Of a stretch of DNA of 64,000 nt, positions 54,863 to 63,801 are shown one piece after another. How positions within the stretch are numbered: position 1 is the first letter of the stretch; every line of letters starts with the position of its first letter. The notes below the pieces were generated by a model. It was not told the DNA's origin and ran no database searches. It was given only the letters and a program-made list of their open reading frames with translations. This DNA comes from Halobacteriovorax marinus SJ (GTDB lineage: Bacteria; Bdellovibrionota; Bacteriovoracia; Bacteriovoracales; Bacteriovoracaceae), in NCBI RefSeq assembly GCF_000210915.2, contig NC_016620.1, positions 3,038,001 through 3,102,000 on the forward strand, written 5' to 3'. The translations under genes were made by a program, and so were the position numbers.

Positions 54863-55369
54863 TTATTTTGGTCTCTTCTTATCCGGCAAGCCATCATGTG
54901 AACCTAGCTTATGCTTTGGATGATCTTTCCAAAACCAACCATCTTCATCACATTCTTTATTTCTTTCGGGGTGTAGAGGGTAAAAAATCCTATCGTCTGG
55001 AGCTTCTATTTGACCAATAACCATTAACTTCACTTCATCTTCAGAGTTATTAATTACACTATGAGCATGCCCTGTCCCTGCTGGTAAAGAAACACAATCC
55101 CCACTTTTCAGATCAAAGACTTTACCATCAATCCATACTTGTGGTGTTCCTTCTAATACAAAAATAAACTCTTCTTGTTCTTTGTGAGCATGGGGCCAAG
55201 AAGAACGATCTCCAGGCTGAAGAATATGATAATTAACTGCAATTTTCTTTAATCCCAACATTTCGCCAAGGTGTGCCCCTGTGACAAATGTTTCATTATC
55301 ACCTGGGTAGCTAAAAGATTCAGTCGATCTTAAGTCTTCACAGTTTTGTATGAAGTCTGGCCTTTCCAT
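54863..55369 (-). CDS. Cupin-domain protein
   Basis: The protein of about 168 residues has one cupin barrel: SSWPHAHKEQEEFIFVLEG (motif 1 with two His and Glu) and GDCVSLPAGTGHAHSVIN (motif 2 with His). Metal-binding is likely; isomerase, dioxygenase or binding roles are all possible. I chose ATG 55369, with AAGGGA 8 bases upstream. It follows the cytidylyltransferase gene by 32 bases on the same strand. Confidence 0.85.
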   Translation of the reverse strand: MERPDFIQNCEDLRSTESFSYPGDNETFVTGAHLGEMLGLKKIAVNYHILQPGDRSSWPHAHKEQEEFIFVLEGTPQVWIDGKVFDLKSGDCVSLPAGTGHAHSVINNSEDEVKLMVIGQIEAPDDRIFYPLHPERNKECDEDGWFWKDHPKHKLGSHDGLPDKKRPK

Positions 55370-55401
55370 AATCAAAATCCCTTATAAATGAAATGCTTTA
55401 A

Positions 55402-56127
55402 CTATTCAGATTCACCGTAATACTGAATTTTTACAGGCTTCATGTGCTTTCTTGAAACAAGCAGGGCTTCTGCCAATTGAAAGTCTTCTTCTCTATCAAT
55501 ATCAATAGTGGCCAAACTATTTACTTCATATAAATGAAACTCTTTATCTCCACCGTGATAGGCGCATCCAAACTTCTCCATATTCTCAATGAAGCTCTTA
55601 TACGTCCAGCCCATCATCACTGAAGCATAAGTAAAGACAGGCTCCATATTCTGAGAGAGTGGATTTTTTTCTAATCGATTAAAGTTTAATGGCTTTCCTT
55701 GATAGAAGTTTGAAATTTGATTTCTCTCTACTGAAATCAAAATATCTTTTTCATCTTTAATCATTTCGCTAACAAAGTCCTCAATCTCTTCAGGTGTAAC
55801 AAGAGGTGAAGTTGCCAGTACTTGAATTAGAATATCTCCGTCAGTATTTTTCATAAAGTCATAAGCGAATTCATCATTCGTGGCCGTATTAGAAGCGAGG
55901 TGCGCCTCTCTTTTATAGAACTTTGCTCCATACTCATGTGCTATTTCTTCAAATATTTCATGTTCAGAGTTTAAGTACACTTCATCAAAAATAGTTGTTT
56001 TAGAAAGGGCTTCAAGAACGTAAGAGACCAGGGGTCTTCCATCTATTAAACGTAGATTCTTCTTCTTCACTCTCGTACTACCGTATCTTACCGGTACCAT
56101 TGCAATAATCTTTCTCTTTCTAGTCAT
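55402..56127 (-). CDS. CMP-sugar (acylneuraminate-type) cytidylyltransferase
   Basis: The 241-residue enzyme has the nucleotide-binding start VPVRYGSTRVKKKNLRLIDG, typical of NeuA/KdsB/PseF-like enzymes that activate nonulosonic or 3-deoxy-octulosonic acids with CTP. Later motifs are ILIQVLATSPLVTPEEIEDF and LATIDIDREEDF. The sugar is unknown, but the neighbours (cupin, SGNH hydrolase, aminotransferase, dehydrogenase) suggest a surface glycan. It has its own start region, divergent from epmC. Confidence 0.87.
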   Translation of the reverse strand: MTRKRKIIAMVPVRYGSTRVKKKNLRLIDGRPLVSYVLEALSKTTIFDEVYLNSEHEIFEEIAHEYGAKFYKREAHLASNTATNDEFAYDFMKNTDGDILIQVLATSPLVTPEEIEDFVSEMIKDEKDILISVERNQISNFYQGKPLNFNRLEKNPLSQNMEPVFTYASVMMGWTYKSFIENMEKFGCAYHGGDKEFHLYEVNSLATIDIDREEDFQLAEALLVSRKHMKPVKIQYYGESE

Positions 56128-56710: not shown

Positions 56711-58024
56711 TTAATTAGGTTTATCTACTTGAATCTCTTTTTTTAACACTTTCCAAACATTGCTGGCCATTAACTTGTAACCTTCAGGACTAGGGTGCTC
56801 ATGTTCTCTAAAGAGATCATTATTCCCTTTTTCAATTAACTCATTAAATACCGTATTGTTATCGACAAGTGGTAACCCATATTCTTTTGCAACTTGCTCT
56901 AGGGCGATATTTGCATCTGTAAAGTTCTCGGGGTAGTTTTGCAATATTAACTTTATACCATTGGCCTTACTTATCTCAGCCAACTCTCTTATATTTTGAA
57001 TTCTCAATCTATTTATTCTTTGAATTGACTTCTCTCTTTCAGTAAAGAGAGTTGCATACTTTTGATAGAGTTCGGTTTGTAATACATTAGGGCTTTGATG
57101 AGCAATCTTCAATAATCTCTTAGCAATATCATGTGCCGTATATTTAGACTGAAAGTCATATGCCATAGTCATTCTATGAAGAGGGTAACGTCCAAATCCT
57201 TCAAACAATTCAGGATGCTTCTCTAAGAATTTTAATGTCTCTTCGATTACTCTCGACTGCTTACTTGCAATGAAAAGTCTATCGACGACTGCATTAAGTA
57301 TCGTTTCTAGCTTTACAGGAGGAACCTCTAACCCCTTGTCTGTCACAAACTTCTCTGCCGCCTCAACGTCTCCTGTAAGATAAAAATCTAAAACTTGTGC
57401 TACTTCAGGATCCCAATCTCTAAGCTCATCTTCAGTAATATCTAAAGTTGAATTATGAAGGAAACTCTCCTTTAGAGCTAAATTAATTCCTCTGTATATT
57501 TTATAAATTCTTAGCCCTCTAATAAAGCTTGGAGCATGCTCCTCTATATCCTCTACGATCTCTCCAACTTTTTCTTGCTGTAGGGCTGAGATAGGGCTAA
57601 ATAAATCGGCAGCTCCCCCTAAGTAGATGATAATATCAGGAACTCGATTCCATTTCTTTAAAATATCTTTTAACTGCTTTAACGATTGATAAGTTGTTGA
57701 TTCACAAATACCGTGATTTAAAATATTAAAACGTACCTTATTATCTGAAATTCTATTTTCTTCTTTATGAAATAATCTAAAAGGATAGGTTTCATTTACT
57801 GAAACATTACTTCCATTTGTAAGAGAGTCACCAAGAGCAAGTACCCACTTATCTGCTTTCAACTCTTTTCTTAAATTTACTTTTGAATCACGATCGACTG
57901 TTTTCCCATCTTCAAAACTAGCCTCTCTACCAGTTTGAATAACTAGTCCAAGACCTCTAAGACCCAGCTCAACTACTGAAATGGTCAAAATCAAGCTAAT
58001 TGAAAATAGCGAACACTTGACCAA
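56711..58024 (-). CDS. Membrane-anchored SGNH/GDSL hydrolase
   Basis: The 437-residue product has one N-terminal membrane helix and an SGNH hydrolase domain: LALGDSLTNGSNV (block I Ser), YLGGAADLF (block III Asn position is weak), and HEHPSPEGYKLM (block V, Asp/His-type). A long insert (about 170-330) is helical. These often act on acyl groups of glycans. The only start in frame is TTG 58024, while a good AGGGAG site lies 28 bases further upstream without an ATG, GTG or TTG at the right distance. The true start is uncertain. Confidence 0.72.
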   Translation of the reverse strand: MVKCSLFSISLILTISVVELGLRGLGLVIQTGREASFEDGKTVDRDSKVNLRKELKADKWVLALGDSLTNGSNVSVNETYPFRLFHKEENRISDNKVRFNILNHGICESTTYQSLKQLKDILKKWNRVPDIIIYLGGAADLFSPISALQQEKVGEIVEDIEEHAPSFIRGLRIYKIYRGINLALKESFLHNSTLDITEDELRDWDPEVAQVLDFYLTGDVEAAEKFVTDKGLEVPPVKLETILNAVVDRLFIASKQSRVIEETLKFLEKHPELFEGFGRYPLHRMTMAYDFQSKYTAHDIAKRLLKIAHQSPNVLQTELYQKYATLFTEREKSIQRINRLRIQNIRELAEISKANGIKLILQNYPENFTDANIALEQVAKEYGLPLVDNNTVFNELIEKGNNDLFREHEHPSPEGYKLMASNVWKVLKKEIQVDKPN

Positions 58025-58130: not shown

Positions 58131-60065
58131 TTATTTAACAGTCCTTATAGAATCTTTAATTAACTCTGCAATTTTAAAGGTTTCTTCTATTGTCCAATGG
58201 ATATCTACTTCCACCCTAAGAGTTTTTGTAACTTTATCCATTGATGACAAGAAATTAAAAACTGCATAATTATATTGCTTGTCTGTCTTTAAGTATGGGT
58301 TTCTACGCTTATCAAAGAAAGCTTCTTTAGTAAGCATTTTCCCCCACTTCCAAACCACATGACCAGGTCTCATTGATGGTGGGATCGCTGCAACTCTTCT
58401 ATTGCGCAGGGCTTTTCCTATGGACGCGCACATATTTGCGTCCTTACAAGAAAGGTAAATAGTTATTCCACAATCTCCTTCTACATCATGCCCATTTTGA
58501 ATTTTTATTCCATCTACTTCTTTTAAAGCGTCGTATAATATTTTTTTTCTTTCTCTGTACTTAAGAAGAATCATCTCCGACTTCTTAAGCTGTATATTTA
58601 AAATTGCACCAGTAATTTCACTCACACGCATCGAGTAACCCAAAACAGGGTTAAAGTCGGTGAAGAAGTTCTCATGATGTGGACTAATACTGAAAGCACC
58701 ATCAGAAATACAACAGATTTTCTCATACATTTCTCGGTCATTAGTTAAAACAATACCTCCATCTCCCGAGGTTATTATCTTATCTTTATTAAATGAGAAG
58801 CAGCCAAAGTCACCAAAAGTTCCCAAGTACTTACCTTTATATTTTCCTCCGAAGGACTGACAGGCATCCTCTATTAACTTAAGATTATGATCCTTTGAAA
58901 ACTTAACAAAGGCGTCCATATCGCAAGCAATCCCATCCATGTGAACAGGGATTAACCCTTTAGTTCTATCTGAAATAATTTCCTTGGCGTGATTTAAGTC
59001 CAATTGAAGATTGTCATCAACCTCGCATACGACAGGAATTGCACCGGCCATTAATACTGCACTAGCAGTAGCAATAAAAGTATAGGATGGAATTAAGACC
59101 TCATCCCCTTCTCCTATATCTGATGCGATGAGCGCACAGACAAGAGCATTCGTACCACTTGTCACAAGATGAGCGTATTTTACACCAAACTTACTTGCTA
59201 ATGCTTTTTCAAACTTTCGACAAAGACCGTCCTGCTTTTGATATCTAAATAACTCTCCAGATTTTAAAACTTCTGCAACGGCATCAACTTCTTCTTGATC
59301 AATAAAGTGCTTTTCCATTTTCTCTTTCCCTTCAGAGAAGTCTACGCGACTACAATTCTTGCAAATGCTATGTAGCTCCCTCTTTCCCGCTAATAAATCT
59401 TCTCTGAACTGACATGCTTCATTACTATTCCAAATATCAATTATATTTTTGTTCTTTATATTTCCAAGTGATTTTTTTCGATAAGCATCTTCAAAGCATG
59501 ATAGAACTTCACCGCTATAGGTCACTGTCATCATTAAGCTCGGCACACTACAGGGTAAATTTGAAGAATCAATAGAGGTTTCCAAATCTAAAGAACCACC
59601 TCTATTTGTTAAAGTTAAATCTCCAAAGCCACGCAATGAAATCTTTGACTTTACTTGCTCCTCTAGGTCTTTATAAAAGTTTTCAAGAGGTAACTTCTTT
59701 ACTTGCTCATGTTTTGTTACAACAATCTCACCGAGTCCTAAGTCTAAAATTTCTTGCAGTTTATCCTTTGAAGTTATCCGCGTCCCATTTGTATATAAGC
59801 TTAAAAAAGAATCTGGCAAAACCCTTCTCGCTTCACTTACAAACCAATTAAAGTTTTTTGCCATCATAGGTTCATTATAAAAATCAAATGCTAACTTACC
59901 TTTGAATCCATTCTCTTTTAACTGGCTCAGCAATAAGGAATATACACTTTCTTCCATTTCAAAGTTAGAGGCATAGTTTTCTAGTGAATTTGGACAATAT
60001 GAACATGAAAGGTTACATCCCGAATTTATCTCTATTTCAATAACTAAGGGGTGCTTACTATTCAT
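58131..60065 (-). CDS. Radical SAM/SPASM enzyme fused to DegT-type PLP aminotransferase
   Basis: The 644-residue protein has two domains. Residues 1-245 are radical SAM: Cys17-x3-Cys21-x2-Cys24, the YNEP (GGE-like) motif, and SPASM-type cysteines Cys172, Cys190, Cys235 and Cys238. Residues 250-644 are a DegT/DnrJ/EryC1/StrS aminotransferase with VTSGTNAL, EDACQSFGGKYKGK, and the PLP lysine 429 in SFNKDK followed by SGDGG. One chain could thus oxidise an alcohol to a ketone and aminate it, as separate enzymes do in aminoglycoside pathways. A zinc dehydrogenase gene lies 11 bases upstream. Confidence 0.88.
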   Translation of the reverse strand: MNSKHPLVIEIEINSGCNLSCSYCPNSLENYASNFEMEESVYSLLLSQLKENGFKGKLAFDFYNEPMMAKNFNWFVSEARRVLPDSFLSLYTNGTRITSKDKLQEILDLGLGEIVVTKHEQVKKLPLENFYKDLEEQVKSKISLRGFGDLTLTNRGGSLDLETSIDSSNLPCSVPSLMMTVTYSGEVLSCFEDAYRKKSLGNIKNKNIIDIWNSNEACQFREDLLAGKRELHSICKNCSRVDFSEGKEKMEKHFIDQEEVDAVAEVLKSGELFRYQKQDGLCRKFEKALASKFGVKYAHLVTSGTNALVCALIASDIGEGDEVLIPSYTFIATASAVLMAGAIPVVCEVDDNLQLDLNHAKEIISDRTKGLIPVHMDGIACDMDAFVKFSKDHNLKLIEDACQSFGGKYKGKYLGTFGDFGCFSFNKDKIITSGDGGIVLTNDREMYEKICCISDGAFSISPHHENFFTDFNPVLGYSMRVSEITGAILNIQLKKSEMILLKYRERKKILYDALKEVDGIKIQNGHDVEGDCGITIYLSCKDANMCASIGKALRNRRVAAIPPSMRPGHVVWKWGKMLTKEAFFDKRRNPYLKTDKQYNYAVFNFLSSMDKVTKTLRVEVDIHWTIEETFKIAELIKDSIRTVK

Positions 60066-60076
60066 TACGACCTAAA

Positions 60077-61090
60077 TCACCTATCATCATTTATCAACAT
60101 GGCCTTTAGGCCAACTCTTTTTTTTGCAAACTCAAAAGCTTTGTTAATATTTCCAAACTTAAAGGTATCAACCATTTTCTCTGAATACCTTTCAATAATA
60201 GGTGCCCAGAAAGTAACAGATTTACGAAAGTCTTCAACTTTATGACTACCTAACCAGGTCGCCGTCAAGCTTCTTCCGTGCATTGAATTATTATCTATCT
60301 TTGCATCGTAATATTTACCAACGACAACAATTAGCCCTTCTTTCTTTGTGAACATATGTATCTTAGGCAGGACACCTACCCCTCCATCACCGTTGCCTGT
60401 ACAGTCTATAGCTGTATCAAACTTTGCAAAATTCTTTCCCGAGATAAGAAAGGGTGCAAAGTTTTGTATATCTATTCCCAAACCTTTCGCTCGCTTAATT
60501 CTCTCCCTCTTAACCTCGACAATAGTAGCATTATATCCCCTATGCTTGAGGGCAAGGTAAGAAAATATTCCAATTGGTCCAGCGCCAAAGATTACGATCT
60601 TATCACTTTTTTTAAGACCAGCCTCTTTCGCCTTATAAAAAGATAAATCACCTATAAAAGCAACTTCAAGTAAAGTAAGTGCCTTAATAGAAAGGTCTTG
60701 AGGGAGTTTAACGATATCGCTAAAATGAATTTTCACTCTATTGGATAATACACTTACCTCTCCTGAGCCTAAAAGCTTTCTCTCTGTACAATTGCTCCAA
60801 TTTCTTGAAATGCAACTCTCACACTTTTGGCAGCAGTAATTTGCTGATGATGTGACATATTCGCCTACACTTAAATCTTCTACAGAACTTCCTATTTCTA
60901 TTACCTCTCCAACCCATTCGTGACCAACAGGGGGATTGCTCCCTCCATATCTAATCGCAAATAAATCCGAGCCACAGAAACCAACAGAGATAGGTTTTAC
61001 TAAAACCTCATCACCATTTACTTTAAGAGGCTTATCTCTATTTTCAATCTGAAATGTATTACTTTTAAATCTGTAGATCCATCTCTTCAT
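60077..61090 (-). CDS. Zinc-dependent medium-chain alcohol dehydrogenase
   Basis: The 337-residue protein has the catalytic-zinc residues Cys39 (FCGSD) and His57-Glu58 (GHEW), the structural-zinc cysteines at about 87, 90, 93 and 101 (CQKCESCISRNWSNC), and the Rossmann loop GAGPIG. It oxidises or reduces an alcohol or sugar with NAD(P). It is first of a two-gene unit with the radical SAM/aminotransferase fusion (11-base gap), which suggests one pathway. Confidence 0.92.
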   Translation of the reverse strand: MKRWIYRFKSNTFQIENRDKPLKVNGDEVLVKPISVGFCGSDLFAIRYGGSNPPVGHEWVGEVIEIGSSVEDLSVGEYVTSSANYCCQKCESCISRNWSNCTERKLLGSGEVSVLSNRVKIHFSDIVKLPQDLSIKALTLLEVAFIGDLSFYKAKEAGLKKSDKIVIFGAGPIGIFSYLALKHRGYNATIVEVKRERIKRAKGLGIDIQNFAPFLISGKNFAKFDTAIDCTGNGDGGVGVLPKIHMFTKKEGLIVVVGKYYDAKIDNNSMHGRSLTATWLGSHKVEDFRKSVTFWAPIIERYSEKMVDTFKFGNINKAFEFAKKRVGLKAMLINDDR

Positions 61091-61624: not shown

Positions 61625-62731
61625 ATGACTTTGGATATAAAACACCTATTAAGGCCACTCTTTAACCTCTATTCTATGATGTTTGGGTTTGCCGCAAAAT
61701 GGTTGCATCCAATTTTTCCATTTACCCCACTTCGTCTATCTGTCTACATTACAAAGAAGTGTAATTTAACTTGTCCGCACTGCTATACAAAAGATGCACT
61801 AAATACTCCAGAGCCCAATTCGCTTAGCTTTGATGAATGGAAGAAGATCGTTGATACAATTCCTAGAAATACAGTTATAGATTTTTGTGGAGGAGAAATA
61901 TTCTTTTCTAAGCACATGCTCCCCTTACTTGAATATATGTCTAGAAAAAAGAGGCTAATTTCCATCATTACGAATGGAACAACGATGACAGAGTCTCATA
62001 TTGACCGTTTTATAGATCAAAAAATCACCTACTATATGACATCAATAGACGGCATGGAAGTTTTCCACGATAAGCTTCGTGGAAAAGAAGGAACATTCAA
62101 GCGCGCCACAGATATGCTTCGCTACATGCAAAATAGAAAAAAGCAAAGAGGTGCAACATACCCTATAACTTGTATAAAGACAGTTATTACTCCAGATAAT
62201 TATAAAGATATTCCAGCTCTCTTAGATTTTGCAGAGAATGATCTTGGTGTTGAGAATATACAGTTCTGCCTAGTTTATAATAATAAGAATAGAATGGTTT
62301 TTGATACCTTTAGTGACTATAACTTGATTTCAGGATTTGAAGGAAATACTTTTGAGTATCCAGAAGAGTCTAAAGCAGGCGTCAAAGAAACACTTAAATA
62401 TATTATTGAATATAAGAAGAAATCTAAGATGTTCATCGGTCTAGATCCACGACTTCCAAAAGACGAAATGATTCTCGACTATTTAGATAATCAAAATAAT
62501 TTTGGAGTAAAAAACTGCAATAGACACTGGAGTGAATACTTTCTCCACTACGATGGACAACTTACTTCATGTATCACCTATAATCTTGGAAATATCAGAG
62601 ACGTCAATTACGACGTTAGAAAGGTTTTAGGACAGAAGAAAGTGAAGAGTTTTTTGAAATATATGGATTCTCAAATGCCTTTCATAGAAGAATGTAGAAG
62701 TTGTTGTAAGGGCGATCACCATCCCAAATAA
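61625..62731 (+). CDS. Radical SAM/SPASM-domain protein
   Basis: The 368-residue protein has a hydrophobic N-terminal stretch (about 10-35), the radical-SAM cluster Cys46-x3-Cys50-x2-Cys53 (CNLTCPHC), the DFCGGE motif, TNGT and SIDG. A SPASM-like C-terminal region has cysteines in NCNRHW, TSCITYNLGN and EECRSCCKG. SPASM enzymes modify peptides, proteins or sugars; the substrate here is unknown. The next radical SAM gene follows after 8 bases. Confidence 0.88.
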   Translation: MTLDIKHLLRPLFNLYSMMFGFAAKWLHPIFPFTPLRLSVYITKKCNLTCPHCYTKDALNTPEPNSLSFDEWKKIVDTIPRNTVIDFCGGEIFFSKHMLPLLEYMSRKKRLISIITNGTTMTESHIDRFIDQKITYYMTSIDGMEVFHDKLRGKEGTFKRATDMLRYMQNRKKQRGATYPITCIKTVITPDNYKDIPALLDFAENDLGVENIQFCLVYNNKNRMVFDTFSDYNLISGFEGNTFEYPEESKAGVKETLKYIIEYKKKSKMFIGLDPRLPKDEMILDYLDNQNNFGVKNCNRHWSEYFLHYDGQLTSCITYNLGNIRDVNYDVRKVLGQKKVKSFLKYMDSQMPFIEECRSCCKGDHHPK

Positions 62732-62739
62732 GGAAGTCA

Positions 62740-63801
62740 ATGTACTTAAGAACTTTAGCTGAGAGCTTTAAAGTATTTTCATTTTCTAGAATTTTGCTTC
62801 ACCCAAAGTACATGCTCAACCGTTTTCTTTTAAACTTAAGCTTCGCCTTAAATTTAAAAAAGTCACTTGGCAAACCAGCTTATGTTGTAATTGAACTTAC
62901 CAATCACTGTAATTTAAAATGTGTAATGTGCCCTCAACCAAGACAGACGCGTGAAGCAGGGTATATGAGCTTCGAGTTATTTAAATCCATTATTGATCAA
63001 GTAAAGAACTACGCCGAAGTCATCGATCTTGATCTATTTGGTGAAATTCTTCTACATCCTAGGTTTGATGAATTTATAAAATACGGAAAGACCCAAGGTC
63101 TTAAAATGATGGTCAGTACCAACATTACAAGACTAAATGAGAAATACTCAAAAAGGCTTATAGACTCTGGACTAGATTTTATAACACTCTCACTCGATGG
63201 AGCTAAGAAAGAGACCTTTGAGTCCGTTAGGGTTGGCGGTAATTATGAAAAGTGTGTAGAAAATGTTGAGACATTTCTTCGCTTGAATAAGAGAAAAATT
63301 TTTTCAACTATTCAAATCATTAACATGAAGCAAACTCAAAGAGAGTTGATAGACTTTGTAGAAAAATTTAAAAATCACGATGCAGACATTGTTCGAATTA
63401 TTCCCTACACTTCTCACGATCCAAAAAAGAAAGATTTAAATTGTGACTATAACTACACTCCATCAGAGAATCATTGTGCTTTTCTCTGGAGAACAATGGT
63501 CATAACCTGGAATGGCAAGGTTGTTCCGTGCTGCCAAGACTGGGATAATAATATTGTCCTTGGTGATATGACAAAGAATAATCTTAATGAAATTTGGAAT
63601 GGAGAAGAGTTCACAAAGATGAGAAGAGATCATATCGACAATAATAGAATTGATTATGAAATCTGCCAGGGCTGCGATGCCTTCAATCCATCCAAACTAA
63701 CAATGCTAGGTAGCTCCGTGCTTGACGACTACAATGCAAATAAGATTCTGCCTGTTATACAAAAGAACTATATTCTCTCTAATCTTAAAAAGAAGAATTA
63801 A
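62740..63801 (+). CDS. Radical SAM/SPASM-domain protein
   Basis: The 353-residue protein has a basic/hydrophobic N-terminus (about 1-48), then Cys57-x3-Cys61-x2-Cys64 (CNLKCVMC), LFGEILLHP, STNI and SLDGA. The typical SPASM ending follows, with VVPCCQDW, VLGDMTKNNLNEIWNG and ICQGCDAF. That pattern is common in enzymes of sugar, cell-surface and cofactor pathways. It is co-transcribed with the preceding radical SAM gene and overlaps the last gene of the window convergently by four bases. Confidence 0.9.
   Translation: MYLRTLAESFKVFSFSRILLHPKYMLNRFLLNLSFALNLKKSLGKPAYVVIELTNHCNLKCVMCPQPRQTREAGYMSFELFKSIIDQVKNYAEVIDLDLFGEILLHPRFDEFIKYGKTQGLKMMVSTNITRLNEKYSKRLIDSGLDFITLSLDGAKKETFESVRVGGNYEKCVENVETFLRLNKRKIFSTIQIINMKQTQRELIDFVEKFKNHDADIVRIIPYTSHDPKKKDLNCDYNYTPSENHCAFLWRTMVITWNGKVVPCCQDWDNNIVLGDMTKNNLNEIWNGEEFTKMRRDHIDNNRIDYEICQGCDAFNPSKLTMLGSSVLDDYNANKILPVIQKNYILSNLKKKN

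Follow-up and report, generated by a model that had tools for sequence, protein, structure and literature searches.

A single reverse-strand gene of the window (the whole 64,000-nucleotide stretch of DNA analysed) encodes a radical SAM/twitch-SPASM half followed, on the same polypeptide, by a DegT-type aminotransferase half (58131..60065, (-)). The 644-codon frame is intact, Pfam places Radical_SAM (residues 12–114), SPASM (172–238) and DegT_DnrJ_EryC1 (255–560, E 5e-74) on its 644-residue product, and the arrangement is kept in eight other genomes. We regard it as probable, with a likelihood of roughly 0.6, that the chain is a bifunctional enzyme that would oxidise and then aminate its substrate, the resulting amino sugar being destined for a carbamoylated surface glycan. 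For an unactivated hydroxyl of a sugar to become an amine, two separate enzymes are normally required, with a free and often unstable carbonyl between them. If the proposed reading is correct, one protein would join radical SAM and PLP chemistry and provide a tool for making amino sugars. Consistent with the preliminary description of this gene, according to which such a fusion is not known as a described enzyme, no publication on the architecture was found in a limited open-access literature search. Within the scope of that literature, 369 genomes of the phylum and plasmid records, the architecture appears to be new, and is made from two known kinds of enzyme.

The N-terminal half (residues 1–243; 59337..60065, (-)) is a predicted BtrN-type radical SAM dehydrogenase. 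Among solved structures BtrN alone comes close (4m7s, E 1.7e-50; 38.8% identity over 232 aligned residues), the next match having an E value of only 1e-3. BtrN, the 2-deoxy-scyllo-inosamine dehydrogenase (PDB 4M7S/4M7T) whose reaction and clusters have been reviewed (PMC9012708), has in common with the N-terminal half its fold family, the CX3CX2C motif, the four cysteines of its auxiliary cluster and Arg152, as well as motifs around Tyr62, Tyr90 and Phe188–Asp190; unlike the N-terminal half, BtrN is a free protein. The CxxxCxxC motif (59994..60017, (-)), the predicted site of the SAM-cleaving [4Fe-4S] cluster, comprises Cys17, Cys21 and Cys24, which align with C16/C20/C23 of BtrN, and is present in 8/8 fusions covering the region and 24/24 separate relatives. 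Arg155, the equivalent of BtrN Arg152, lies within an NRGG motif (59601..59603, (-)) and is invariant in nine fusions and the 24 separate relatives. The predicted ligands of a single auxiliary [4Fe-4S] cluster, Cys172, Cys190, Cys235 and Cys238 (59352..59552, (-)), align with BtrN C169/C187/C232/C235 and are invariant in all relatives. Since four cysteines amount to one auxiliary cluster, the domain that Pfam names SPASM is strictly a twitch domain like that of BtrN. The comparison with BtrN that had been drawn at the outset is thus borne out, at 39% identity and with all seven cluster cysteines and the arginine kept.

The C-terminal half (residues 252–644; 58134..59312, (-)) is a predicted KdnA-like DegT aminotransferase. 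KdnA, the 8-amino-3,8-dideoxy-D-manno-octulosonate transaminase (PDB 5K8B), matches it with an E value of 1e-61, and the profile of the subfamily aligns with KdnA end to end (329 bits, positions 5–390), whereas the next best alignment, at 240 bits, is partial. The C-terminal half scores 212 bits against KdnA and 155 bits against BtrS, which by sequence makes KdnA its nearest solved relative and BtrS a weaker match. Both KdnA and the C-terminal half have a lysine at the PLP position, an FRY motif near the N terminus and a C-terminal His/Trp motif; their identity is about 43%, over the core only, and KdnA differs in being a free protein that works with a separate Fe-type alcohol dehydrogenase (ADH), KdnB. 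BtrS (2-deoxy-scyllo-inosose aminotransferase, PDB 2C7T) shares the DegT fold and the PLP lysine and pairs functionally with BtrN, but does not align end to end. The initial likening of the two halves to the BtrN/BtrS pair therefore holds for the BtrN relative, the aminotransferase lysine and a shared pathway, but is more apt for how the halves would work than for the descent of the C-terminal half, which is nearer KdnA. Lys429 (58779..58781, (-)), the PLP-binding lysine by alignment, is invariant in nine fusions and matches the lysine of KdnA and of perosamine synthase. ColD-type dehydratases have a histidine at this position; with the lysine kept and no histidine there, the C-terminal half is expected to be a transaminase rather than a dehydratase of that type. 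The cysteines and lysine that the preliminary description had placed on one chain are all found there, at residues 17/21/24, 172/190/235/238 and 429.

The halves are connected by a linker (residues 241–251; 59313..59345, (-)) whose length is 9–13 residues across all nine fusions. It contains an in-frame ATG (Met250, 59316-59318) after GAAGGGAAAGAG, and an in-frame methionine occurs in 7/9 fusions; this codon may be the former start of the aminotransferase gene or an internal start yielding free aminotransferase. In the mechanism that we propose, SAM bound at the [4Fe-4S] cluster of the N-terminal half would give a 5'-deoxyadenosyl radical, which by analogy with BtrN would take a hydrogen atom off the alcohol carbon; a second electron would leave via the auxiliary [4Fe-4S] cluster, again as in BtrN, to generate a ketone or aldehyde. 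The KdnA-type, PLP-dependent C-terminal half would then transfer an amino group from an amino acid onto that carbonyl. Sequential action of this kind fits both the shortness of the linker and the fact that unfused pairs keep the order of the fusion. More tentatively, the reactive ketone or aldehyde might go straight from the radical site to the PLP site, so that C-OH would become C-NH2 with no release and the chain would be a natural one-step alcohol amination unit, a possible rather than a probable course of events. If the chain does carry out both reactions, it would offer a test case for substrate hand-over from an oxygen-sensitive iron-sulfur site to a PLP site. AlphaFold2, run on the fusion chain as a single sequence, gave a pLDDT of 31 and a pTM of 0.21, too low for the model to be used.

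The fusion is present in nine genomes, the source genome included, spread over six genera of a single family. Within the genus of the source genome, three others carry it whole (68, 58 and 45% identity), as do five genomes of five other genera, except that one copy ends at a contig end; that copy apart, end-to-end identities to the query are 68, 58, 48, 45, 45, 44 and 43%. The catalytic residues of both halves are common to all nine sequences. Because the fusion recurs end to end in independent genomes, a sequencing error joining two genes, which had been named as grounds for abandoning the idea, or an assembly artefact, is rejected. In a tree of the radical SAM halves the fusions form one clade (support 99/98), and in a tree of the aminotransferase halves they also form one clade (94/82) with two nested aminotransferase-only copies (G075 and G089) that look like later losses of the radical SAM half. 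This grouping, together with largely the same branching in both trees, argues for one fusion event, passed on as a unit. With members of families f8 and f6 added, the fused aminotransferase halves are no longer resolved as monophyletic, so that the single-fusion reading is mainly supported by the radical SAM halves. In one genus, the same site behind the kds operon holds a fusion and an ADH in one genome (L071, G090) and an aminotransferase alone in another (L081, G089), the latter having apparently lost the radical SAM half and the ADH. No fusion was found outside the family among the 369 genomes of the phylum searched. Of 72,556 plasmid records, 775 match, but in none of them is 80% of the query covered at one place; the radical SAM half had no match in phages, and no viral relatives of the fusion were found. 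A scan of genome contigs matched only a C-terminal fragment, 67% identical, on a contig labelled uncultured Dokdonia (L031), which is probably misbinned and from a relative of the source genome.

The two halves also travel together as separate genes. Two genomes from another family of the phylum, G341 and G352, have the radical SAM gene directly upstream of the aminotransferase gene, in the order of the fusion, with a TGATG stop-start overlap in one genome and a gap of 2 nt in the other. Across 129 genomes of the order, the aminotransferase subfamily and a BtrN-type radical SAM protein occur together in 24, the aminotransferase alone in 5, the radical SAM protein alone in 1 (a genome 56% complete) and neither in 99. 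The association has a Fisher p value of 4e-20, and of 6e-8 when counted by genus (9/1/1/37), shared ancestry being incompletely corrected in both; leaving out the fusion genomes, the counts are 15/5/1/99. Together with the adjacent separate genes of that other family, this near-perfect co-occurrence indicates a shared pathway for the two halves.

As a rule, the pair has a gene for a third enzyme, an NAD-type ADH, next to it. Eleven bp upstream of the fusion, a gene for an MDR zinc alcohol/polyol dehydrogenase (60077..61090, (-); ADH_N E 4e-16) encodes its probable partner: an ADH gene of the MDR family adjoins the fusion with little or no gap in five genomes and occurs in the same cluster in two more, radical SAM and ADH genes overlap in G017 and G062, and in G023 three overlapping genes follow one another in the order radical SAM, ADH, aminotransferase. 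These arrangements speak for an alternative in which the MDR dehydrogenase and the radical SAM half each oxidise one hydroxyl and the aminotransferase half acts at both positions, so that the product would be a diamino sugar or cyclitol, much as a single aminotransferase is used twice on the way to 2-deoxystreptamine. However, no such ADH is near the fusions of G001 and G107 or the family f8 pairs, and the ADHs adjoining fusions fall into separate clades in a tree, which suggests that the ADH may be an exchangeable extra. We consider a double oxidation possible but rather doubtful. The same neighbour nevertheless weighs against oxidation by the radical SAM half followed by amination, because the ADH could supply the carbonyl instead.

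It is somewhat less likely again that the two halves serve different molecules or steps, with the aminotransferase being fed by the ADH or another enzyme, the radical SAM half catalysing a separate step and the fusion securing joint expression only. Five genomes have the aminotransferase and no detectable BtrN-type gene; it is found near an ADH without a neighbouring radical SAM gene in G065, G084, G085 and G088, and in G089 it occupies the same syntenic place without either. Taken with the apparent radical SAM loss in G089 and G075, the aminotransferase-only genomes indicate that the aminotransferase is able to work without a fused partner, and, given the neighbouring MDR dehydrogenase, that it may be fed otherwise or act twice. 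They count against the preferred reading, as do the genomes of genus g58, where the radical SAM gene is located away from the aminotransferase, and the loss of monophyly of the fused aminotransferase halves on inclusion of f8 and f6. Against separate steps stand the very short conserved linker, the identical order in unfused pairs and the tight co-occurrence. The BtrN-type gene of one g58 genome (L094) adjoins genes that are HemE-like and HemN-like by profile; its neighbours in L091, L093, L095 and L096 are of similar size and probably have the same arrangement. A reading of these neighbours as AroB and AroA was dropped in view of the L094 assignments.

The relationship of the C-terminal half to KdnA, the closest solved aminotransferase and the only one aligned over the whole length, raises the alternative of an amino-Kdo synthase. 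In Shewanella, the partner of KdnA is the Fe-type dehydrogenase KdnB, a Kdo 8-oxidase (PMC5125639). The fusion could stand in for both proteins and supply the LPS core, its substrate for oxidation and amination being Kdo or a Kdo-like ulosonic acid: the source genome has kdsA and gave no match to the Fe-ADH family of KdnB (PF00465), a cytidylyltransferase gene is nearby in the window, and in G089 and G090, of one genus, the aminotransferase or fusion gene is directly behind kdsB-pyrG-kdsA-kdsC-DUF493-gpsA. However, the kds neighbourhood is seen in that one genus only, whereas carbamoyltransferase and GT4 genes are the usual neighbours in three families; the branch leading to KdnA is very long; and the cytidylyltransferase falls far under the curated PseF and KdsB cut-offs. 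Amino-Kdo is thus a live, if improbable, alternative product. The cytidylyltransferase gene, PseF/KdsB-like though below these cut-offs, lies beside a cupin gene (54863-56127), and the two may form a CMP-sugar activation pair.

Gene context points instead to a carbamoylated surface glycan from an uncharacterised 'sporadic carbohydrate cluster' (TIGR04323, TIGR04324). In G002 and G003 the fusion forms part of a glycan cluster that also encodes a carbamoyltransferase, two GT4 glycosyltransferases, a Wzm/KpsM-like ABC exporter and signal-peptidase-like, PqqD-like and twitch radical SAM proteins. Unfused aminotransferase genes have similar surroundings in many genomes of this family as well as in a second one. 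Genes for carbamoyltransferases, GT4 glycosyltransferases and polysaccharide-type ABC export adjoin the aminotransferase in many of these neighbourhoods. The source genome (G000) has a related cluster (L046 and L104, 3128001-3166000), with parts kept in three families of the phylum. It holds SpoChoClust_1 and SpoChoClust_2 genes, a split transketolase, two NDP-sugar epimerase/dehydratase-like genes and an RfaE domain II-like nucleotidylyltransferase, together with genes for a carbamoyltransferase, GT4 enzymes, an ABC exporter, a PqqD-like protein and several twitch radical SAM proteins. In this genome some 44 kb separate the fusion from the BtrN-like gene that belongs to the cluster (L046:14526-15275), whereas in G002 and G003 it is within the cluster. 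The context would point to an uncharacterised carbamoylated amino-glycan in an apparently Bdellovibrio-type predatory lineage.

The same surroundings bear on whether the fusion is a true equivalent of BtrN and BtrS acting on an aminocyclitol of the 2-deoxystreptamine type. The degree of identity to BtrN, with every cysteine and Arg152 present, and the place of BtrS among the better aminotransferase matches agree with such a role, but BtrS is not the nearest aminotransferase. Neither an inositol-1-phosphate synthase nor a dedicated 2-deoxy-scyllo-inosose synthase was found in the source genome, whose lone DHQ-synthase-family gene, aroB-like and below the curated cut-off, has aroC- and aroA-like genes on either side and resembles an ordinary AroB. 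An aminocyclitol product is accordingly very unlikely, and the glycan context combined with the lack of these synthases favours an amino sugar; of the sugar or cyclitol substrate envisaged in the preliminary description, the former is the more probable.

Also very unlikely is a radical SAM half that acts as an epimerase or another radical rearrangement enzyme: radical SAM families switch reaction easily and BtrN is, to our knowledge, the only characterised member of this close group, but its four auxiliary-cluster cysteines and Arg152 are invariant, the pairing with an aminotransferase calls for a carbonyl and no computed result favours such an activity. The BtrN-type proteins of these bacteria fall into two deep clades. 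BtrN itself falls into one of them, along with the glycan-cluster copies, so that it lies within the sister clade of the fusions; the other contains the fusions and most radical SAM genes beside an ADH or aminotransferase (G023, G017, G062 and G352), the adjacent copy of G341 being an exception. With the fusion and the BtrN-like gene of its glycan cluster, the source genome has one protein of each clade.

Several other genes lie around the fusion or its relatives. Downstream is a gene for an SGNH/GDSL hydrolase (56711..58024, (-); Pfam Lipase_GDSL_2), whose association with the fusion is uncertain; a distant GDSL gene (26%) likewise follows the aminotransferase in G023. Two further tandem radical SAM/SPASM genes are found near the fusion (61625-63801). 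Finally, a small Peptidase_S74 (endosialidase chaperone) protein is a conserved member of the glycan cluster (L046:3-350; L106:17739-18539; L114:8866-9630); two genomes have it joined with a PqqD-like part.
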